In this document: one piece after another, positions 1,663-29,495 of the stretch
Layout of the letters: the number at the start of each line of letters is the position of its first letter
Position numbering within the stretch: the stretch's first letter is position 1
Source: Planctomycetota bacterium
Lineage (GTDB): Bacteria > Planctomycetota > UBA1135 > GCA-002686595
Length of the DNA stretch: 33,234 bases
Reading direction: 5' to 3'
Assembly (NCBI GenBank): GCA_016220035.1
Contig: JACRIO010000185.1
Span: 1 to 33,234 of the forward strand
Made by a program: the position numbers and the translations under genes
The notes under the pieces: model-generated
Seen by the model: only the letters and a program-made list of their open reading frames with translations
Databases searched by the model: none
What the model was told of the DNA's origin: nothing

Positions 1663-1859
1663 GAGGTCCGGAGTCTCGCGAGTGGGCGGTGCTCGATCCA
1701 TGCGCAAGGCGGGCCTCGTGCACGGGCGCGTCGAGGCGGGTGGGGAGCGATGCCGCGCGATGGGTGCAACGGCCGCGTCCGGGTGGGCAAGAAGAGGTGG
1801 AGCCCTGTGCAGACCAATCCCTTGCGGTTGGAATGGGGGCGGGAGAAAGCCGGCCTTCC
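1663..1859. other. Divergent gap between the SDR and secreted repeat protein genes
   Basis: A gap of 197 nt with no gene; it should hold both promoters. I see no clear consensus promoter pair. A purine-rich GGGCGGGAG stretch about 12 nt before the ATG at 1860 may serve as the RBS for the secreted repeat protein. Confidence 0.35.
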
Positions 1860-4619
1860 ATGCAGACGAAGCACCTCACTCACTCGTGTGTCCTGGCGCT
1901 GCTCGCGCTCTCTGTGGCCTCCGTTCGGGCCCAGGCGCAGTGCGCCGCGAGCTGGGACGACCGCTTCGGAGCGGGCACACCGGACGCCTTGGCGAAGGCG
2001 TGCGTCGCGTGGGACGACGGAACGGGGGAGCACCTCTACGTCGGCGGCGAGTTCACGTCGGTGGGCGCGCAGCCGCTCGCGTTCCTCGCGCGGTGGGACG
2101 AAGGCGCGTGGTCCGCGGTCGGCGGCGGAGTGGACGGCTGGGTGGGCGCGGTGCACGTGCACGACTTCGGGCAGGGGCCGCGGCTCGTCGCGGCGGGCAA
2201 CTTCCTCACGGCGGGAGGCGTGCCCGCGAACCACATCGCGGTCTGGGACGGAGCGAGTTGGTCGCCGCTCGGCGTGGGGCTCGACGAGCTCGTGCTCGCG
2301 CTCGAAACGCATGACGACGGCACCGGCGCGAAGCTGTACGCGGGCGGCACGTTCACGACGTCGGGTGGAGCGCCGGTCGCGCGCTTGGCGAGCTGGAACG
2401 GTACGAGCTGGTCGTCCGTGGGCGGCGGCGTGAACGCGCCGGTGCACGCGCTCGAATCGGCCGACCTGGGAACGGGGACCGCGCTGTTCGCCGGCGGCGA
2501 GTTCACGAACGCGGGAGGGACGGCCGTGAACTACGTCGCGCGCTGGAACGGGAGCGCGTGGTCCGCGCTCGCGACGGGCGTGAACGCATCGGTGCGCGCG
2601 CTCCGTGCGTACGTTCCGCCGTCGATCGGAGCGCCGCGGTTGTACGTGGGCGGCGACTTCCAGATGGTCGGCGCGGCGCCGGCGAACTACCTCGCGGCTT
2701 GGTCCGGGACGGCGTGGTCGACGCCGTGGACGCCGCCTTCGTATCACCCGTCGAACTCGGTGCGCGCGCTCGGGGTGCACGACGACGGGAATGGCGCACG
2801 GCTCTACGTCGGCTGCAGCACGCTCTACCCTGACGCGGCGGTCTTGCGAACGGACGGCGTGTCGATGTCGGTGATCGCCAGCGGTCCAGGCGTCCTGCCC
2901 GTGTACGCGCTCGCCACGTATCACACGGCAGGAGCGCCGAAGCTCGCCGCCGTTGGTTTGCCGTCGACGATGTGGACGGGCGTTTCATCGTGGGACGGAG
3001 CACGCTGGAATGTCCTCACGGACTCGAACGGCGTGTTCGACGTGCGGTGGCCGAGTTTCTCGTATCCATACAAGTCGGGCGTGTATGCGATCGCAGAGGT
3101 CGACGTCGGCGACGGACCGCAGTTCTTCGCGGGCGGTTCGTTCACGCAGGCAGGCGGCGTGCTCGGCGGCAACATCGCGCGGTGGGACGGCACTCGGTGG
3201 CAACCGATGGGGGGCGGCATCGAATGGCCGGGCAGCACTGTGTCCGGCGTGTACGCGCTGCTCGGGTTCGACGAGGGGGCTGGAACCGCGCTCTACGCGG
3301 GTGGACTGTTCACGCAGGCGGGTGGAGCGACGGCGTACGACCTGGCGCGTTGGAACGGGACGAACTGGTCCGCGCTCGGCAATGGCTTCGACGACGAGGT
3401 ACGCGCGCTCGTTGCGCACGACGACGGAACGGGCGCAGAGCTCTACGCTGGCGGCCGCTTCCGCTACGAGGGCAGCCAGCTCGTCAACCGGATCGCGCGT
3501 TGGAACGGAACGAGCTGGTCGCCGCTCGGCGTCGGGATGTCGGGTCCGGTGTTCGCGCTCGCGAGTTTCGACGATGGATCGGGATCAGCGTTGTACGCGG
3601 GCGGACTCTTCCAACTCGCAGGCGGGCAGCCCGCGAATGCGATTGCGCGCTGGAACGGAACGAGCTGGTCGCCCGTCGGCGGCGGGATGACCGGGCCGGG
3701 CGCGTCCGTGTTCGGACTCCTCGTGCACGACGACGGCAGCGGACCTGCGCTCTACGCCACGGGTCCCTTCTCGAGCGCGGGTGGAGCTCCATCGGCGAAT
3801 CTCGCGCGTTGGAACGGAACGAGCTGGTCCGCGGTCGGCGGGGGTCTCGACTCCTACGCCTACGCGCTGGCCGCGCAGGACGACGGCACCGGGAAGGCGC
3901 TCTACGCGGGCGGCACGTTCGCGCACGCAGGCGGCGTTGTCGCGTCGGACCTCGCGCGCTGGAACGGCACGAGTTGGTCCAGCGTCGTCGGCGGCGTCAC
4001 CGTGCCCACCAACGCTTCCGTGTTCGCGCTCGCCTCGGCGGACGAAGGCGGCGGCACCGGCCCCGCGCTCTTCGTCGGCGGGAGTTTCACGGCACTCGGC
4101 GGTGTCGATGCGCACTGGGTCGGCGAGTTGCACGGGTGCCGCATCGCATCGTTCTGTGCCGGCGACGGCCTCGATCCCGACGTGACCACGCCGTGTCCGT
4201 GCGGGAACTTCGGCGCGCAGGGCCGCGGATGCGCGTGGCACGCGGGTCCGTCGGGTGCGGCGCTCGTTGCGCAGGGCCGCATCGCGCCGAGCGATGAACT
4301 CGTACTCGTCGCCGCGGGCATGCCGCTCTCCGCGCCGTCGACGATCTTTTTGAAGGGCGATCAGCTCCTCGTCGGCGGAGCGGTGTTCGGGGACGGCGTG
4401 CGCTGCGTGGGGGGCGGATTGATCCGGCTCGGCACCAAGACGAACGTCGGCGGCAGCGCGCGCTATCCGGAGAGCGGCAACACGGCCATCTCCGTGCGCG
4501 GCGCGACGCCGGTGGGGAGCGGCCTCACGGGCTGGTACCAGACGTACTACCGCAACGCCGCGAGCTACTGCACGAGCGCGACCTTCAACGTGACGAACGG
4601 CGTGCGCGTGATCTGGTGA
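1860..4619 (+). CDS. Secreted protein with about 14 tandem 50-residue repeats and a Cys-containing C-terminal domain
   Basis: A 919-residue exported protein. Residues 1-26 form a signal peptide (hydrophobic LALLALSVASVRAQA). Then come about 14 units of about 50 residues with the pattern LYAGG-x-F-TxAGG-x5-LARWNGTSW-x3-GGG-x4-V-x-AL-x2-HDDGTG; units 6 and 7 (about 2770-3030) are degenerate. The unit resembles Rax2/Kelch-like beta-propeller repeats. The C-terminal 160 residues hold a separate domain with a GDGLD...TPCPCGNFGAQG block, FGDGVRC and a final Tyr/Asn-rich stretch ending NVTNGVRVIW. I recall this domain as a common C-terminal module of secreted planctomycete proteins; that is memory, not a search. 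Several units share long near-identical DNA (around 3360, 3500, 3655, 3810, 3960), which can slip or recombine. A surface or extracellular role is likely; binding partners are unknown. Confidence 0.8.
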   Translation: MQTKHLTHSCVLALLALSVASVRAQAQCAASWDDRFGAGTPDALAKACVAWDDGTGEHLYVGGEFTSVGAQPLAFLARWDEGAWSAVGGGVDGWVGAVHVHDFGQGPRLVAAGNFLTAGGVPANHIAVWDGASWSPLGVGLDELVLALETHDDGTGAKLYAGGTFTTSGGAPVARLASWNGTSWSSVGGGVNAPVHALESADLGTGTALFAGGEFTNAGGTAVNYVARWNGSAWSALATGVNASVRALRAYVPPSIGAPRLYVGGDFQMVGAAPANYLAAWSGTAWSTPWTPPSYHPSNSVRALGVHDDGNGARLYVGCSTLYPDAAVLRTDGVSMSVIASGPGVLPVYALATYHTAGAPKLAAVGLPSTMWTGVSSWDGARWNVLTDSNGVFDVRWPSFSYPYKSGVYAIAEVDVGDGPQFFAGGSFTQAGGVLGGNIARWDGTRWQPMGGGIEWPGSTVSGVYALLGFDEGAGTALYAGGLFTQAGGATAYDLARWNGTNWSALGNGFDDEVRALVAHDDGTGAELYAGGRFRYEGSQLVNRIARWNGTSWSPLGVGMSGPVFALASFDDGSGSALYAGGLFQLAGGQPANAIARWNGTSWSPVGGGMTGPGASVFGLLVHDDGSGPALYATGPFSSAGGAPSANLARWNGTSWSAVGGGLDSYAYALAAQDDGTGKALYAGGTFAHAGGVVASDLARWNGTSWSSVVGGVTVPTNASVFALASADEGGGTGPALFVGGSFTALGGVDAHWVGELHGCRIASFCAGDGLDPDVTTPCPCGNFGAQGRGCAWHAGPSGAALVAQGRIAPSDELVLVAAGMPLSAPSTIFLKGDQLLVGGAVFGDGVRCVGGGLIRLGTKTNVGGSARYPESGNTAISVRGATPVGSGLTGWYQTYYRNAASYCTSATFNVTNGVRVIW

Positions 4620-9412: not shown

Positions 9413-10294
9413 TCAGCCGTCGTCTTCGTCATCCGCGTTCGCACTCGCGAGCACCGGCTCCGCCACCGCCGCCTCGATCGCCGTCGCGGCGGCCTCGGGC
9501 TGGGCCAGCTGCGCCTCGTCGTCGAGCACGGACTGGTCGAGCACATCATCCATGTCCGCAGCGTGCTCCTGCTTGAGCGCGAGGACGATCTCCCCGTGGA
9601 GCCCCTCCTGCTCGATGCCGACGATGCCCAACTTGACGAGCTCGAGCATCGCGCAGAACGTCCCGATGAACGATTCGCGCGAAGGCCCGCCCTCGACCTC
9701 GAGGAAGAGCTCGCGCAGCGACATACGCTGCTTCGAGCGCATGCGGTGCGCCATGTCCTTGACGTAGTAGCGCAGCGGGCGGTGCTCGACCTGCACGCGG
9801 TGCGGGCGGTCGGCGAACGTCTCGCGCATGAGCTTCGAGAACGCCGCGAGCAGATCCCACGCGGTGAGCTCGCCGAGTTCGAGCTCCGGCTCCTTCTCGT
9901 CGACGTCGAAACCCGTCGCGCCGCGCTCGTGCTGCTGCGCGCGCAGCTCGTAGCGCTCACCGAGGCGGTCGGAGGCCTCCTTGAAGCGCCGGTACTCGAT
10001 CAGGCGCTGGATGAGCTCGTCGCGCGGGTCGATTTCCTGCGCGAGATCGACGCTTTCACGGGGCAGCAACGAGCGCGACTTGATCGACATCAACGTCGCC
10101 GCCATGACGAGGAACTCGCCCGCGAGCTCGATGTCGAGGTCGCGCAGCGCCTTCAGGTACTCGAGGTAACCCGCGAGGATCTTCGCGATCTCGATGTCCT
10201 TGATCTCGACCTCCTGCTCGCGCACGAGGTGCAGGAGCAGGTCCATCGGGCCCTGGAAGACGCGCTCGAGGCGCACGGTGTAGTGGGCGATCAC
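9413..10294 (-). CDS. scpA: Segregation and condensation protein A
   Basis: A 293-residue kleisin subunit of the bacterial SMC-ScpAB condensin. The N-terminus reads VRLERVFQGPMDLLLHLVRE (the F-x-GPLDLLL-HL motif that docks on the SMC neck), followed by EIKDIEIAKILAGYLEYL and the LVMAATLMSIKSRSLLP helix typical of ScpA. The C-terminal winged-helix (about residues 170-250) is followed by an Ala/Asp/Glu-rich tail. The start is the GTG at 10294, which overlaps the stop of the upstream protease gene by 4 nt (GTGA). ScpB and Smc are not in the window. The tail is longer than usual but shows no motif. Confidence 0.93.
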   Translation of the reverse strand: MIAHYTVRLERVFQGPMDLLLHLVREQEVEIKDIEIAKILAGYLEYLKALRDLDIELAGEFLVMAATLMSIKSRSLLPRESVDLAQEIDPRDELIQRLIEYRRFKEASDRLGERYELRAQQHERGATGFDVDEKEPELELGELTAWDLLAAFSKLMRETFADRPHRVQVEHRPLRYYVKDMAHRMRSKQRMSLRELFLEVEGGPSRESFIGTFCAMLELVKLGIVGIEQEGLHGEIVLALKQEHAADMDDVLDQSVLDDEAQLAQPEAAATAIEAAVAEPVLASANADDEDDG

Positions 10295-11127
10295 CAGCGG
10301 CCTCCGAGGGACACGAGGTTGCGCAGCCAGATGTACAGCGTGTCGATCGAGGAGTAGAGCCAGCTCGAGAAGCCCGAGCCACCGTAGAGGAGGATGAAGA
10401 CGAGGATCATCCCGAAGCGCTCGATGGCGAGGTAGGGCGAGCGCAGGTCGTTCGGGAGCAGCCAGGCCATGACGCGCGATCCGTCGAGCGGCGGGATGGG
10501 GACGAGGTTGAACAGGGTGAGCAGCAGGTTGGTTTTCACCATCGCCTTCATGACGATGGGGAGGAGGTCGTACTTGCGCTCCTCGATGAAGTCGGCCGCG
10601 CCGTTATACCAGCCGGTCAGGACGAGGACTTTGTAGAGAAGGAGGAAGAGGACGGCGAGCAGCAGGTTCGAAAACGGACCGGCGAGCGCGACCAGGCTCA
10701 TGTCGCGCCAGGGGTGGCGCAGGCGGTGGAAGTTGACCGGTACGGGCTTGGCGCCGCCGAAGACGAAGCGCCCCTGCGTCATGAACAAGAGCAGCCCGGG
10801 GAGGAGGATCGTCATCCACAAATCGATGTGGACGATCGGGTTCAAGGTGAGGCGGCCCTCGTCCTTGGCGGTCGAATCGCCGCACTTCCAGGCCGACCAG
10901 GCGTGGGCGGCCTCGTGGGTGCCCAGGCACAGGATGAGGAGCACCACCTGCATCACGATCGCGAGGACGCTCGCGTCGAGCCCGAGCTGGGGCAGCGGCA
11001 GCGCGAGCACCGCGCCGAGGGAGGCGCAGGCGGCGACGGAGCGGCGGAACGGGCTCGAAAAGCGGCGGATGGCGGGTCTCCGTGGGGCAGCGGCGCGGGC
11101 GCCGGCGCGAAGCGCGCTATCTACCAT
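10291..11127 (-). CDS. Site-2 protease family (M50) membrane metalloprotease
   Basis: A protein of about 278 residues with about five transmembrane segments. The zinc site HEAAH (residues 71-75) lies in a hydrophobic helix, followed by GRLTLNPIVHIDL, and the third ligand motif is seen in NLVPIPPLDGSRV (N-x2-P-x4-LDG). The block ALAGPFSNLLLAVLF is also typical of the YwhC-like branch. Family knowledge: these enzymes cleave substrates within the membrane; the target here is unknown. The start at 11127 adds a basic, Arg/Ala-rich N-terminus of 30 residues before the first segment; a later start is possible. Such proteases are often found next to scpA-scpB in bacteria, as here. It is divergent from the Kdo operon. 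Confidence 0.85.
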   Translation of the reverse strand: MVDSALRAGARAAAPRRPAIRRFSSPFRRSVAACASLGAVLALPLPQLGLDASVLAIVMQVVLLILCLGTHEAAHAWSAWKCGDSTAKDEGRLTLNPIVHIDLWMTILLPGLLLFMTQGRFVFGGAKPVPVNFHRLRHPWRDMSLVALAGPFSNLLLAVLFLLLYKVLVLTGWYNGAADFIEERKYDLLPIVMKAMVKTNLLLTLFNLVPIPPLDGSRVMAWLLPNDLRSPYLAIERFGMILVFILLYGGSGFSSWLYSSIDTLYIWLRNLVSLGGRW

Positions 11128-11190
11128 GCATTCGGGGTTGGCACCACGCCGGGAAGGACGGCCCGCGACCACGCCGCGCGCTCGGCCTCG

Positions 11191-11220
11191 TTGATGCAGG
11201 GATCGCGCGAGGCATAGAAT
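11191..11220 (+). promoter_or_regulatory. Candidate sigma-70 promoter of the Kdo/Lpt operon
   Basis: TTGATG at 11191-11196 and TAGAAT at 11215-11220, separated by 18 nt, match the sigma-70 -35 and -10 consensus at 4/6 and 5/6. It lies in the divergent gap between the M50 protease and kdsD and would give a leader of about 170 nt before the ATG at 11400. It is the best promoter-like pair I saw in this gap. Confidence 0.5.
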
Positions 11221-11399
11221 CCCGCGCCGCGGGAGCGAGCGAGGGGTCGTGCGCGTTCCTTCGTGCTTCGGACCGATCCGGTCCGGAACTCGCCGGTGGT
11301 GAACGGGGCAGTGCGTGGCTCGTGTCGCTTCGTCCGGCGGGGCCGCGCGCTTTCGACCTCCACGCAAGACCCGAGTCCGCCTTGATTCGAACCCCGAGG

Positions 11400-23942: not shown

Positions 23943-24167
23943 ACCGCGGAGTGCTCAGGAAAGGCGGTGGGAGCGTCGAGAAGGTCGCGCGTGGAAAGCG
24001 CCGGCTTCCGCGCATGCCCACGCTCCCCACTCATCCCGACCGGCAGGCCGAAGCCCACCTCCGCGACGCAACGCCGAGGGCTCCTCACGGTCCGCTGGCG
24101 CGGGGGGAGCCGGCACAACGGGTGGACGGACTCGGCGGGAGGTTTCTGTAGACTCCCGAGCCCACCC

Positions 24168-25889
24168 ATGTCCGCCACCAACTTCAAGACAGAGAACAAC
24201 ACGTTCCGCAAGCTGCTCGGCAACGGCTTGACCTATCGCGTGCCCCGCTTCCAGCGGGATTACAGTTGGACGGAGACGGAGTGGGAGGATCTGTGGCAGG
24301 ACCTGCTCGGGACGATGTCTCCCGGCGGCGAGGCGTCGCACTACATGGGCTACCTCGTGCTGCAGTCGACAGACGACAGGACGTTCGACGTGATCGACGG
24401 CCAGCAACGGCTCACGACGTTGAGCCTGATCGTCCTGGCAGCACTCAAGGGGCTACAGCGGCGCATCGATGCTGGCGTCGACGCGGAGCGGAACAAGCAA
24501 CGCATGGAGCAGCTTCGCCAGACCTATGTCGGCTACCTCGATCCCGTGACGCTGGTGCCGCGATCGAAGCTGACTCTGAACCGCAACAACGACCGCTACT
24601 ACCAGACATTCATCGTTCCCTTGGCGGCAAGGCTCCCGCAGCACAACGTCAAGGCGAGCGAGCGGACGCTGCGCAGCGCGTTCGAGTGGTTCGACAGGAA
24701 CGTCGAGGCATACGTCGCAGCGAGCAAGTCTCCGGACCCGGGCATGACGATCGCGCAGCTCGTCGATTCGATGAGCGACAAGCTGTTCTTCACGGTCATC
24801 ACGGTCTCCGACGAGCTCAACGCGTACAAGGTCTTCGAGACTCTCAACGCGCGAGGCGTCCGCCTGTCTGCGACGGACCTGCTCAAGAACTATCTGTTCT
24901 CCGTCCTGCATCGGTCAGACGAGCATGAGGTCGAACTCGCCGCCCTCGACGACCGGTGGGAGGGCATCGTCGGTCGCCTGGGAGCCGCGGATCTCCCCGA
25001 GTTCCTTCGGGTGCACTGGAACAGTCGCCATGCCTCCGCGCGACAATCGGAGCTGTTCCAGGTCATTCGCACGCGCGTCACCACGCGCCAACAGGTCTTC
25101 GACCTGCTTCGCGACATGGAGGCCGACGTCGACACCTATGTTGCGCTGACCCAACCCGAGACGCTCGGATGGTCGCCGACCTGGCGCGAGCACGTCGCCA
25201 CGCTGCGCATGTTCAGCGTACGCCAGCCATTCCCTCTGCTTCTCGCCGCGCGCCGCAATCTGGACGACGCGGAGTTCGAGAGGGTGCTTGCGGCCTGCGT
25301 CACGCTCTCGTTCCGCTACAACGTGATCGCGGGCCTGCACACGGCCGATCAGGAGCGCGCGTACCACTCGACCGCGGTCGGAATCGCTACCGGCAGGATT
25401 CGTGACGCACGGGGGACCTTGGACGCTCTGCGCGGCATCTATGTTTCCGACGACAACTTCCAAGCAGCGTTCGCCGACCGCGCGCTGCGTACGACAGCAG
25501 CACGCAACCGGAAGATCGTGCGATACGTCCTGAGCCGACTGGAACGCCACGTCGGCGGAGCGGCGCCCGATCTCGACGACCCGTCGGTCTCGGTCGAGCA
25601 CGTGCTGCCGGAACATCCGGGGCAGGGCTGGGAGAGCTTCGCTGGGGAGTTGCACGAAGCGCACGTCTACAGGCTCGGCAACATGACGCTGCTCGCCGCG
25701 TCGACGAATCGGGATGTCGGCAACGCCGACTTCGAAGCGAAGCGCGCGGTCTACGGAGCTAGCGCGGTGCAGTTGACCGCCAAGATCGCGGCCGAATTCA
25801 CGGAGTGGACTCCGGAGTCGATCGATCGAAGACAGAAGCAGCTCGCCCGGCTCGCGAAGGCGGAGTGGCGGATCGATCAGCTCTCCTGA
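24168..25889 (+). CDS. DUF262/DUF1524 (GmrSD-like) protein, possible type IV restriction or defence factor
   Basis: A 573-residue protein. The N-terminal DUF262 domain shows VPRFQRDYSW (25-34), VIDGQQRLTT (75-84; the DGQQR nucleotide-binding motif) and FETLNARGVRLSATDLLKNY (223-242). The C-terminal DUF1524 domain is of the HNH nuclease type: VSVEHVLPEHP (474-484, catalytic His), RLGNMTLL (502-509) and a following Asn. Both halves appear intact. Family knowledge: GmrS/GmrD cut glucosylated hydroxymethylcytosine phage DNA, and related single-chain proteins are known in defence islands. No other defence gene is nearby. The codon mix (more AGG, TCG, GCA and fewer CGCG runs) looks less extreme than its neighbours, hinting at transfer. 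The start is the ATG at 24168; flanking gaps of 225 and 148 nt hold no genes. Confidence 0.85.
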   Translation: MSATNFKTENNTFRKLLGNGLTYRVPRFQRDYSWTETEWEDLWQDLLGTMSPGGEASHYMGYLVLQSTDDRTFDVIDGQQRLTTLSLIVLAALKGLQRRIDAGVDAERNKQRMEQLRQTYVGYLDPVTLVPRSKLTLNRNNDRYYQTFIVPLAARLPQHNVKASERTLRSAFEWFDRNVEAYVAASKSPDPGMTIAQLVDSMSDKLFFTVITVSDELNAYKVFETLNARGVRLSATDLLKNYLFSVLHRSDEHEVELAALDDRWEGIVGRLGAADLPEFLRVHWNSRHASARQSELFQVIRTRVTTRQQVFDLLRDMEADVDTYVALTQPETLGWSPTWREHVATLRMFSVRQPFPLLLAARRNLDDAEFERVLAACVTLSFRYNVIAGLHTADQERAYHSTAVGIATGRIRDARGTLDALRGIYVSDDNFQAAFADRALRTTAARNRKIVRYVLSRLERHVGGAAPDLDDPSVSVEHVLPEHPGQGWESFAGELHEAHVYRLGNMTLLAASTNRDVGNADFEAKRAVYGASAVQLTAKIAAEFTEWTPESIDRRQKQLARLAKAEWRIDQLS

Positions 25890-26037: not shown

Positions 26038-27273
26038 TCAGGGCCGAGCGGTGGTCGCAGGGGAGCTCGCGGCCGCGAGGATCTCCGCCTCGGTCAGGAT
26101 GCGCGGCGTCTGCTTCGCGAGATCGAGCACCTTCTGCACGCGCTCGTCCGTCGGTGTGATGCCGCGCTTCTCGAGGAAGTACGTCACGTTCGACTTGCCG
26201 CTCATCGGACCGACCGTGATCACCTGCTCGAGGCCGACGAGATCCGCCGGCACGCCCGAATACACGCGGTTCGCGAGCCACGTGTCGCCCTTCTTGAAGG
26301 CCTTGATCACCGCGGCCGCGTGCACGCCCGTGCCGGTCTCGAACGCGTCCTTGCCGAACACGGGGTAGTTCGGCGGCAGCGGGACGCCCGTGATCGCGTG
26401 CGCGAGACGAACGTAGTCGCCGAGCTTCGAGAGGTCGTTCTGGACGAGCCCCATCAAGCGCAAGTTGACGAGCAGGAGGTCCATCTCCGCGTTGCCCGCG
26501 CGCTCTCCGAGGCCGAGCGCCGTCGCGTGTACGCGCGTGACGCCCGCTTCGATCGCCGCGAGCGCGTTGATCAGTCCGAGCCCGCGGTCGCGGTGCCCGT
26601 GCCAGTCGATGCCGACGTCGACGCCCGCATCGGCGACGACCTGCTTCACGAACGTGATCAGACGCTTCACCCCCGACGGCGTCGCGTGCCCGCAGGTGTC
26701 GCAGACGCAGATGCGCTTCGCGCCGGCCTCGATCGCGGTCGTGTAGAGCGCGCGGAGGTTCTCGGGGCTCGCGCGCGTCGTGTCCTCGGTCACGAACATG
26801 ACCGGCAGGCCGTTCTTCACGCCGAACTCGACTGCTTCGCGCGAGAGCTTGAGCATCGTGTCGAGCTCCCAGTTCTCCGCGTATTGGCGGATGGGGGAGC
26901 TGCCGATGAACGCGCACACCTCGACGGGCCGACCCGTGGCCTGCACGACGTCGACGACGGGCGCGATGTCGGTGACCAGGGTGCGGCACGCGACGTTGGG
27001 CGTGATCCGGAGCTTGCCCATCTCGCGGCAGAGCGTCGTGATGTGCTCGCGCGCGCGCGCACCGGCGCCGGGGAGGCCGACGTTCGCGGTGTGGATGCCG
27101 AGCTGGTCCATGAGGCGGACGAGTTCGATCTTCTGCGCGAGCTCCGGATCGTGCGCCGACGGGCTCTGCAGTCCGTCGCGCAGCGTCTCGTCGTCGAACT
27201 GGATCGGCTTCGCCGTCGTCTTCGGGTCGGCGTTCCAGTCGTGGATCAGGTCGTTCGGGCGCGTGTCGGTCAT
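26038..27273 (-). CDS. LeuA/homocitrate synthase-like (HMGL-type) acyl transferase
   Basis: A 411-residue TIM-barrel enzyme of the DRE-TIM family. Motifs: FDDETLRDGLQSP (the DxTLRDG metal and catalytic motif, residues 27-39), GIHTANVGLPGAGAR, DWHGHRDRGLGLINALAAIE (His-x-His metal ligands), HATALGLGERAGNAEMDLLL (G-x-GERAGN) and FETGTGVHAAAVIK. The start and domain order match isopropylmalate, citramalate and homocitrate synthases. It lacks the C-terminal LeuA allosteric dimer domain (full LeuA is over 500 residues), so it may be free of leucine feedback or belong to a homocitrate-like branch. The substrate cannot be set from sequence alone. The ATG at 27273 has no in-frame rival nearby. Confidence 0.82.
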   Translation of the reverse strand: MTDTRPNDLIHDWNADPKTTAKPIQFDDETLRDGLQSPSAHDPELAQKIELVRLMDQLGIHTANVGLPGAGARAREHITTLCREMGKLRITPNVACRTLVTDIAPVVDVVQATGRPVEVCAFIGSSPIRQYAENWELDTMLKLSREAVEFGVKNGLPVMFVTEDTTRASPENLRALYTTAIEAGAKRICVCDTCGHATPSGVKRLITFVKQVVADAGVDVGIDWHGHRDRGLGLINALAAIEAGVTRVHATALGLGERAGNAEMDLLLVNLRLMGLVQNDLSKLGDYVRLAHAITGVPLPPNYPVFGKDAFETGTGVHAAAVIKAFKKGDTWLANRVYSGVPADLVGLEQVITVGPMSGKSNVTYFLEKRGITPTDERVQKVLDLAKQTPRILTEAEILAAASSPATTARP

Positions 27274-27356
27274 GGAGAGGGTTCGCGGGCGTTCGAGGGG
27301 CCCGTTCGAGCCGCACATCCTACCGTCGAACCACGTGCGGACGGTTCGGGCGCCGC

Positions 27357-27890
27357 TCAGTCGGGCTTCACGGTCGCGATGGCTCCGGTCGCAACGCGCA
27401 CGAGCAGGAACGTGCCGCCGCCGAGGAAGACGAGGCTCAAGACGAGCGGAAGCCAGATCGGCTCGATGTCGCGCACCATCACGGCGTCGGTCGGGTCCGT
27501 GGGATCGACGAAGCACTTCGCGGCCGAGCCCGGGTTGTGGTTCGCGACGATGTCGCGCGCGCTCGAACCGCCGGAGGTCTCCCAGCCGGTGAGCGCGAAG
27601 TCGTTCGACGTGTACGTCGCGCCGGCGTACTCGTAGCGGAACGTGATCGCGGGCCGGTACTTCGTGTGGCCCTTGCGCGTGGAACTCCTGAGCTCGCTCG
27701 TGACGATCGTGCAGGGCACCTGCTCCCAGCTCCGCGCCGCGCGCTCGCGCAGGAGCGGGTAGACGACGCCGAGGACGAGCGCCGCGAGCCCGCCGAGCGC
27801 GAGCAGTGCCCCGAGGATCGCCGTGCCGACGGGACCGAGTGGGCGGCGCTTGCGCCGGGAGCCCAGCGTGATGGGAATCGGGAAGGCCAT
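27357..27890 (-). CDS. DUF3592-like membrane protein
   Basis: A 177-residue protein with a basic N-terminus (SRRKRRPLGPVG), one transmembrane helix at about 24-46 and a second near the end (about 148-170, WLPLVLSLVFLGGGTFLLV). Between them lies a beta-rich domain with SWEQVPCTIVTSELRS...YRPAITFRYEYAGATYTSNDF and the ending NPGSAAKCFVDPTDPTDAVM. That is the classic DUF3592 layout: W-x-x-V-x-x-x-I, Y-x-P-x-I-x-Y-x-Y and a NP-x3-V-x-YP-like strand. The function is unknown. It lies 83 nt upstream of the LeuA-like gene and on the same strand. Confidence 0.78.
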   Translation of the reverse strand: MAFPIPITLGSRRKRRPLGPVGTAILGALLALGGLAALVLGVVYPLLRERAARSWEQVPCTIVTSELRSSTRKGHTKYRPAITFRYEYAGATYTSNDFALTGWETSGGSSARDIVANHNPGSAAKCFVDPTDPTDAVMVRDIEPIWLPLVLSLVFLGGGTFLLVRVATGAIATVKPD

Positions 27891-28025
27891 GTCGGGGCGA
27901 GCCTACCGCTCGAAGGCGCGTCCCTTCACGTCTCGTCCGGCCTTCTCGTGCAGAAACGCGAGGCGGAGAGAAAAGCACACGCGGCGTGAGGACGCCGTGA
28001 AAGGGCCCTCGCGCCGCGCATTGGA

Positions 28026-28047: not shown

Positions 28048-29034
28048 CTACTTGTTGAGCTCGACCTTCGAGAGCGCGACGAAGCGGTCGAAGCGCTGCG
28101 CGGCGTTGGTGCCGGCGTGCTTCTTCGCGAGGCCCTCCGCGCGCTTCGCGTTGCCCGGCTCGAAGGGCTTCTTCTTCGCGACGTCGCCCACGAAGAGGTC
28201 CCACGCCTTGTCCGCGTCGCGCTCCTTCTCGACGGCGGGTGCGGCGAGCTTGGCCTTCTGCTCGAGCACCTTGGGATTCAGATCGGCGCTGCCCTTGACG
28301 GCCTTGTCCAGCTTGTCCACGAGCGCGTCCGCCTCGGTGATGAAGCCGTTCTCGATGAGCCATCCCGCGCGCTTCACCTTGGACTCCGTGCGCGCGATGA
28401 AGTCGTTCTTGGCGCTCTTCGAGGCTTCGCTGGCGACCTTGTCGCACTCCGCGATCGCGGCGGCGATCTCGCCCTTGTTGAACGACGCCCACGCCTTCTC
28501 GAGCTCCTTCGGCGTGCCCGCGGGCGCCTGCTTCGCCTTCTTGATCTCGGCGACGATCGCCTCCTCGAGCTTCTTGCCCATGTTGCCGGGGTGGCCCTGC
28601 ATGAGCACGCTGCCGTCGTTCCCGATGAGCGCGGTCTCGGGGAGCCCGTTGCCCGTCGTCGAGATGGGGCGCTCGATGGTCCACATGGCACCGTTGCCCA
28701 TCCACTTCATCTTCCAGACGAACGCTTCCCAGACGTCCTTCGGAGTGTTCTGGCACTCGACGAAGATGACCTGGAGGTCGTCGCCATACGTTTCCTGGAG
28801 CTTCACGGAGGCCGGCACGGACCCCCCAATGCAGCCCCCTCAGTTCTTGCCCCAGAACTCGATGAGCACCGGGTGGCCGCGGAGCTCGGAGAAGCTCTTC
28901 ACGCCGAACGAGTTGAGCGGAGCTTCGTGGAAGGAGTACTCGACCGCGGCCGGCGCCGAGACGGTGGAGCCCGAAGTGAGCCACGCACCGCCGACGAGGG
29001 CGAGCGCGGCCAGCGAGAACAGGGGGAGCTTCAT
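28048..29034 (-). CDS. Exported thioredoxin-fold protein with an in-frame TGA (probable selenoprotein)
   Basis: One reading frame of 329 codons is broken only by a TGA at 28842-28840. Reading through gives a 328-residue protein: signal peptide (about 1-27, LFSLAALALVGGAWL...TVSA), then VLIEFWGKN-U-GGC-IGGSVP, where U is residue 65 and C68 completes a UxxC motif that takes the place of thioredoxin CxxC (compare FWATWCGPC). The cis-Pro region GLPETALIGNDGSVLMQGHP follows, then a helical Lys/Ala/Glu-rich C-terminal half. The TGA is followed by a bSECIS-like hairpin. The RBS is GAGAGG before the ATG at 29034. Alternatives are a sequencing error or a recent nonsense mutation; the codon use and conservation on both sides of the TGA argue against a decayed gene. 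The two halves would otherwise be called as a 64-residue protein and a 256-residue orphan. Confidence 0.82.
28813..28833 (-). promoter_or_regulatory. bSECIS-like stem-loop downstream of the in-frame TGA
   Basis: On the minus strand, counting from the base after TGA, bases 14-20 (GGGGGUC) pair with bases 27-33 (GGCCUCC) as 7 pairs including two G.U, around the 6-nt loop CGUGCC. The loop begins 20 nt after the UGA and has G as its second base, in line with the bacterial SECIS rule (apical loop about 16-37 nt after UGA with a G among the first two loop bases). The stem forces GGG codons where this genome otherwise prefers GGC. Confidence 0.6.
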
Positions 29035-29041
29035 GGGGAGA

Positions 29042-29495
29042 CCTCTCTAGTAAGGAGGGGAGTTCGGGCAGCGACCGTACCGCGCCGGGGCGGATCGCAC
29101 AACCCGGCACGGGTTCGCGGGGGGGCGGAGTGGGCCTGGACACGGAGGCTTTCGGAAGGAACGAGGCGCGGACCAATGCGACGAAGGGAGGCCCTGCGTA
29201 CCGGTGCGCGAGGCGCGAGCGACGGCCAAGGGTGAGTTCCCCGCGCGCTGCGTGCGCGATCGCTCGCGGAGTGAGCGATTCGCGCGAGACGTCGCGCGAG
29301 CGAGTGCTGCGAGTCGCGCTCGCTCTGGATTGGCGACATCAGCGGAGCGAAGTGTCCAAAGTAACGGGGGCGTCCAAAGCAGTTCGAGAAAGTCGAAGAA
29401 CGATCGCAACGGTTCGCGCGTCGAGGTATAGGAGAACGCGTCGAGCGGAACAGGACGCTCGACGCTTCCTTTCCGACTGGCATCGAGGAGATCTC
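29042..29495. other. Long non-coding gap between the selenoprotein gene and RHS gene
   Basis: A 454-nt divergent gap with no convincing gene. It holds two GC-rich hairpins: ATCGCTC/GAGCGAT (29259-29279, 7 bp, 7-nt loop) and GCGAGCG/CGCTCGC (29296-29323, 7 bp). The rightmost 100 nt are less GC-rich and likely hold the RHS promoter, but I could not single out a clear -35/-10 pair. Confidence 0.4.
29074..29102 (-). promoter_or_regulatory. Possible promoter of the selenoprotein gene
   Basis: On the minus strand TTGTGC (29102-29097) and TACGGT (29079-29074) are spaced by 17 nt. Each is a partial match to the sigma-70 elements (about 3/6). The start of transcription would be about 30-35 nt upstream of the ATG. 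This is a weak candidate. Confidence 0.28.

Follow-up and report, generated by a model that had tools for sequence, protein, structure and literature searches.

Does the single in-frame TGA of an otherwise intact planctomycete gene end translation, or does it encode selenocysteine (Sec)? The question arises in a contig of 33,234 nt (the window, by which we mean the whole stretch of DNA analysed), where a reverse-strand frame at 28048-29034 runs from ATG to TAG (28050-28048) over 329 codons, counting the stop, and is interrupted only at codon 65 (28842-28840), in the context IEFWGKN-TGA-GGC. The initial annotation had described a frame open but for this TGA, which would lie at the place taken in thioredoxin/TlpA proteins by the first Cys of the CxxC motif, with the second Cys and the cis-Pro region intact. 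Each of these observations was borne out, Cys68, G130 and P132 being present and invariant in 26 orthologues. The parts of the locus, in the order in which they would be read, are given below.

29042..29048, reverse strand: putative Shine-Dalgarno-like AGAGAGG, 7 nt upstream of the ATG (from reading the sequence).
28048..29034, reverse strand: gene for a 328-aa protein, almost certainly a selenoprotein, with Sec at residue 65 (frame; 26-row orthologue alignment without frame breaks).
28954..29034, reverse strand: probable Sec-type signal peptide, residues 1-27, ending ...TVSA/PAA (inspection; low AlphaFold2 confidence over residues 1-27; hydrophobic N-terminus in the orthologues).
28537..28947, reverse strand: predicted TlpA/ResA-like thioredoxin domain, residues 30-166 (Foldseek to PDB; profile match to 2lja).
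28840..28842, reverse strand: in-frame UGA, proposed Sec codon, residue 65 (TGA in 26 of 26 aligned orthologues and in further Sec rows; TGC in the Cys copies).
28831..28833, reverse strand: resolving Cys68 of UxxC (invariant in 26 orthologues).
28807..28826, reverse strand: predicted bSECIS hairpin, stem 28826-28820 / 28813-28807, loop 28819-28814 (covariation, recoding test, codon bias).
28639..28641, reverse strand: cis-Pro position P132 (with G130, in the GLP region, invariant in 26 orthologues).
28051..28530, reverse strand: predicted all-helical TPR-like C-terminal domain, residues 169-328 (AlphaFold2 pLDDT 94; weak TPR matches; C-terminal half of NF041382).

A standard gene caller would split this locus into a 64-aa ORF and a 256-aa ORF starting at GTG 28818, as if the UGA were a true stop in a pseudogene, a sequencing error, or the end of one ORF followed by a separate downstream one. 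Genes of this sort are cut by gene callers, and the family is likely misannotated wherever it is present. The distribution of the codon argues against a stop. Among 81 genomes from the taxonomic family to which the window's genome belongs, 44 have a long homologue with exactly one TGA (E < 1e-43), and the codon at the Sec column is TGA, never TAA or TAG, in all 26 aligned full-length orthologues (35-61% identity to the window protein for the others in this alignment), as well as in further Sec rows. A second collection yielded 38 loci, among which all records with a named group are Planctomycetota, including the complete genome of an isolate, Saltatorellus ferox Poly30 (CP036434.1, with the orthologue at about 1324597-1325568), which makes the family testable. 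Wider searches traced it to further families within the order and the class, and to other parts of Planctomycetota, with one TGA in nearly every case. As this TGA is shared by dozens of independent assemblies, a sequencing error, such as a misread TGC or TGG at 28842-28840, is excluded. Downstream of the UGA, the dN/dS ratio is mostly about 0.12-0.22 in closely related pairs, to which the estimate is confined because saturation of synonymous sites makes distant orthologue pairs unreliable; this purifying selection indicates that the part 3' of the UGA is translated and selected. Furthermore, re-initiation at 28818 would lose the active site, and the hairpin that follows the UGA covaries. On this comparison of sequences, a true stop is highly improbable, and already refuted by conservation, and UGA codon 65 almost certainly encodes Sec.

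The hairpin itself required closer description. The initial annotation had placed 20 nt after the UGA a 7-bp stem with a 6-nt loop whose second base is G; the stem and the loop stand as described, with the clarification that 20 nt is the distance to the start of the loop (28819), the stem beginning 13 nt after the UGA (28826). With the U of UGA numbered 0, the stem joins positions 16-22 to 29-35, and the loop, CGUGCC, occupies 23-28. The published bSECIS model calls for an apical loop of 3-9 nt with a G in its first two positions, a stem of 4-16 bp and a loop 16-37 nt from the UGA (PMC13188914), and the window hairpin agrees with each of these constraints. The unusual GGG codons noted around the stem were also found: the gene uses 21 GGC, 5 GGG, 2 GGT and 1 GGA for Gly, and of the five GGG, three follow closely on the UGA, two of these falling at the stem. 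Judged by folding energy, the window hairpin is unremarkable (z -1.08 against dinucleotide shuffles) and not significant against synonymous recoding (P 0.068), and single-sequence folding energy was not used as proof of the hairpin; an Rfam search of the window gave no match. Full pairing (7 of 7) in the window is nevertheless improbable under synonymous recoding (P 0.0008, with registers chosen after inspection).

Comparison among orthologues is far more telling. In the 22 distinct sequences that share the main register (set A2), 97.4% of cells are standard pairs, with 23 double-change cells and four of the seven pairs altered on both sides (one pair occurs, for example, as G-C, C-G and A-U); their covariation score is 0.453, versus 0.151 +/- 0.028 after shuffling and no more than 0.113 after sliding. 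A further set with a shifted register and a GGU loop (A3) is 100% paired, with a covariation score of 0.490. Over 61 distinct Sec sequences, the mean is 6.43 of 7 pairs, versus 4.08 +/- 0.11 after peptide-preserving synonymous recoding (registers again chosen after inspection). At codons +5 to +8 and +11 after the UGA, conservation exceeds what the amino acids require, with Val encoded by GTG in 26 of 26, and in one homologue (L164) a one-codon deletion puts the hairpin 3 nt closer to the UGA and leaves the loop intact. Pairing in the scored registers is poor in seven Sec homologues (L146, L148-L150, L157, L174 and L175). In the relatives that have Cys (TGC) in place of Sec, namely the Cys copy of L080, L090, L091, L139 and L141, only 3-4 pairs form, which is the level of the recoded background; the hairpin is therefore missing from the copies that lack the UGA. 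On this point the comparisons are decisive, and argue that the predicted hairpin is under selection as RNA. These covarying hairpins offer a natural set for learning what planctomycete SelB recognises. We also considered a bulged U, as in the SECIS of E. coli fdhF, and rejected it: several orthologues have this U paired with A, so that a bulge is not conserved.

Would the host be able to read such a codon? The assembly from which the window comes (4.78 Mb, 341 contigs, 84% complete) contains all four components whose presence had been proposed as a check, with selA (449.6 bits), selB (314.6 bits; the gene is truncated by a contig end and only partly assembled) and selD (319 bits) above their cut-offs, and a tRNA-Sec with anticodon UCA (72 bits). 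In the same taxonomic family, selA was found in 75 of 81 genomes, and in all 29 of those with at least 90% completeness and at most 5% contamination. These data also bear on a lineage-wide reassignment of TGA to a sense codon (Trp or Cys), which would equally leave one TGA open in frame. Most of the aligned orthologues terminate at an ordinary TGA, so that these genomes still use TGA as a stop codon and its reassignment is excluded; the complete Sec system with its tRNA-Sec, and a specific covarying hairpin that follows the UGA and is missing from the Cys copies, speak against it too. We regard reassignment as even less credible than a true stop, to the point of being negligible. Sec insertion, on the other hand, is strongly supported by what can be read from the genomes: the UGA is conserved at the position of the redox Cys, a bSECIS follows it and covaries, the machinery is present and Cys homologues exist. 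The comparison with related planctomycetes that had been suggested came out in the same direction, with TGA at the same column and a conserved hairpin in most, and TGC in some.

Several other genes of this genome carry features of selenoproteins. The selD gene (L020, G000:C99:3733-4674 +) has an in-frame TGA near its N-terminus (CAG-UGA), and SelD is likely a selenoprotein itself. Three thioredoxin-like proteins, L002 (G000:C324:34724-35590 +), L004 (G000:C213:7175-7987 +) and L005 (G000:C276:389-781 -), have a W-UGA-GPC active site and are likely additional TlpA-like selenoproteins; L002 and L004 reach the Pfam cut-offs of AhpC-TSA and Redoxin. A VPGU-STC protein (L137, G000:C324:2741-3178 -) is related to the known VPGUxxT selenoproteins.

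What might the protein do? The AlphaFold2 model is confident (pLDDT 90) and comprises a signal-like N-terminal segment, a thioredoxin domain and a helical C-terminal domain. Foldseek matched the thioredoxin domain to the PDB entries 2l5o, 3eyt, 3gl3 (DsbE) and 1st9 (ResA) at about 18-24% identity, and a profile match to 2lja was found (E 8e-13). As is characteristic of the TlpA/ResA type, the predicted fold has UxxC at the start of helix 1 and a cis-Pro. The C-terminal domain is all-helical, with weak TPR-like matches. The window protein stays below every Pfam gathering score and every NCBIfam cut-off, including the curated ones for ResA, TlpA and DsbE (16.7 bits versus 170 for ResA), and a search of viral folds in BFVD returned generic thioredoxins only, none at E <= 0.001. 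The protein is thus a probable exported TlpA/ResA-like domain joined to a TPR-like C-terminal domain, the signal peptide being assigned by inspection. It shares with ResA, DsbE (CcmG) and TlpA the fold, the position of CxxC, the cis-Pro and an export-type N-terminal segment, but these proteins have Cys where the window protein would have Sec, lack the extra C-terminal domain and show low identity to it.

Taken as a whole, an exported TlpA/ResA-like oxidoreductase with a nucleophilic Sec, whose UGA65 would be decoded through the hairpin and SelB, is very strongly favoured by these sequences. The hairpin, 13 nt past the UGA, would recruit SelB with Sec-tRNA-Sec, and UGA65 would be decoded as Sec instead of stop. 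The signal peptide would then direct the protein across the inner membrane, where the W-G-x-x-U-x-x-C site may carry out thiol/selenol-disulfide exchange outside the cytoplasm, presumably in the reductase direction: Sec65 would attack the substrate, and Cys68 would resolve the mixed selenenylsulfide. Electrons would probably come from a DsbD/CcdA-type membrane protein, and the genome encodes one DsbD_TM protein; the TPR-like domain probably binds a partner or substrate. One might instead think of a selenoprotein that acts as a peroxidase or handles metal or selenium, since peroxiredoxin-like and metal-related families are known among thioredoxin-fold proteins with Sec (PMC13188914), and one weak Foldseek match was to a glutathione peroxidase (6vpd). 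The UxxC motif, the cis-Pro and the best fold matches, which are to the TlpA/ResA/DsbE disulfide reductases, make such a function unlikely, if still worth bearing in mind beside the disulfide reductase that we prefer. In 36 contigs, no other ORF of the window recurs beside the orthologues, and the context therefore gives no pointer to function, substrate or partner. Elsewhere in the window are a GmrSD-type (modified-DNA restriction) gene matched by both GmrSD_N and GmrSD_C (23967-25889, +), and genes for an HMGL-like protein (26038-27978, -), an M50 peptidase (10291-11367, -) and a beta-propeller protein (1689-4619, +); for the last three no link to the selenoprotein was found.

Sec-containing TlpA-like proteins are a kind already known. 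Published tables (PMC13188914, PMC9312934) list, with UxxC, a 'thiol-disulfide isomerase-like protein' (cd02966), a 'Prx-like thiol:disulfide oxidoreductase' (PF00578) and a 'redoxin family protein' (PF08534). Like these, the window family has a thioredoxin fold in which Sec replaces the first Cys of CxxC; unlike them, it has the signature W-G-x-x-U-x-x-C-x-G-x-[SA]-V-P and a TPR-like C-terminal domain of about 160 aa, almost always uses Sec and falls far below every NCBIfam cut-off. A closer relation exists to NF041382 (VPGUxxT thioredoxin-like (seleno)protein, type 1), itself a (seleno)protein family, which has a homologous helical C-terminal domain (residues 155-326 of the orthologue L039 match 177-348 of the model, E about 5e-8). 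Its Sec, however, lies in VPGUxxT, as against WxxxUxxC in the window family, which lacks the VPGUxxT motif and scores at best about 32 bits, in the C-terminal half only, versus a cut-off of 350. In the same phylum, a complete Sec machinery has been published for planctomycetes P1 and P2 from Porphyra, for which the selenoproteins named in the main text are formate and formylmethanofuran dehydrogenases (PMC4807772). The window's family was not found in Pfam, NCBIfam or open-access papers, and on the basis of these sources it appears to be an undescribed family of a known kind. With its few Cys relatives, it is of a type overlooked by methods that rely on Cys/Sec pairs.

These few Cys relatives nevertheless speak to the history of the site. 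In the maximum-likelihood tree, L139 (Cys) groups with L140, the Sec copy of the same genome (100/100), the Cys copy of L080 groups with two Sec rows (100/100) and L141 (Cys) lies within a clade of family f8 that is mostly Sec (100/100), while L090 and L091 form a separate lineage whose genomes also carry a Sec orthologue. A Cys gene of Gimesia (L089), tried as an orthologue, proved to have a much longer frame and an ordinary TlpA-like domain, and was left out of the counts. Because Cys copies without the hairpin nest inside Sec clades, Sec looks ancestral in this tree, which is rooted at the midpoint, the outgroups being distant. The simplest reading of these sequences, and a likely one, is that the ancestor had Sec and that Cys replaced it four times or more, mostly after duplication. 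For this unnamed Planctomycetota selenoprotein family as a whole, we consider it probable that Sec is both ancestral and near-universal, and that Cys arose at least four times, usually in a duplicate beside a Sec copy, the SECIS being lost each time. According to a 2026 review (PMC13188914), bacteria rarely exchange Sec for Cys, and the documented cases are mainly FdhA and SelD. In these Planctomycetota, Sec is widely used, and its use is probably old; Sec and Cys duplicates in one genome permit a direct comparison of the two residues in the same fold. At L080 the Sec and Cys copies are adjacent and divergent on the same contig (2592-3578, -, and 3902-4891, +). A further group of paralogues (L092-L098) has lost the UxxC/CxxC motif altogether, and seems to form a branch of the family without redox activity.
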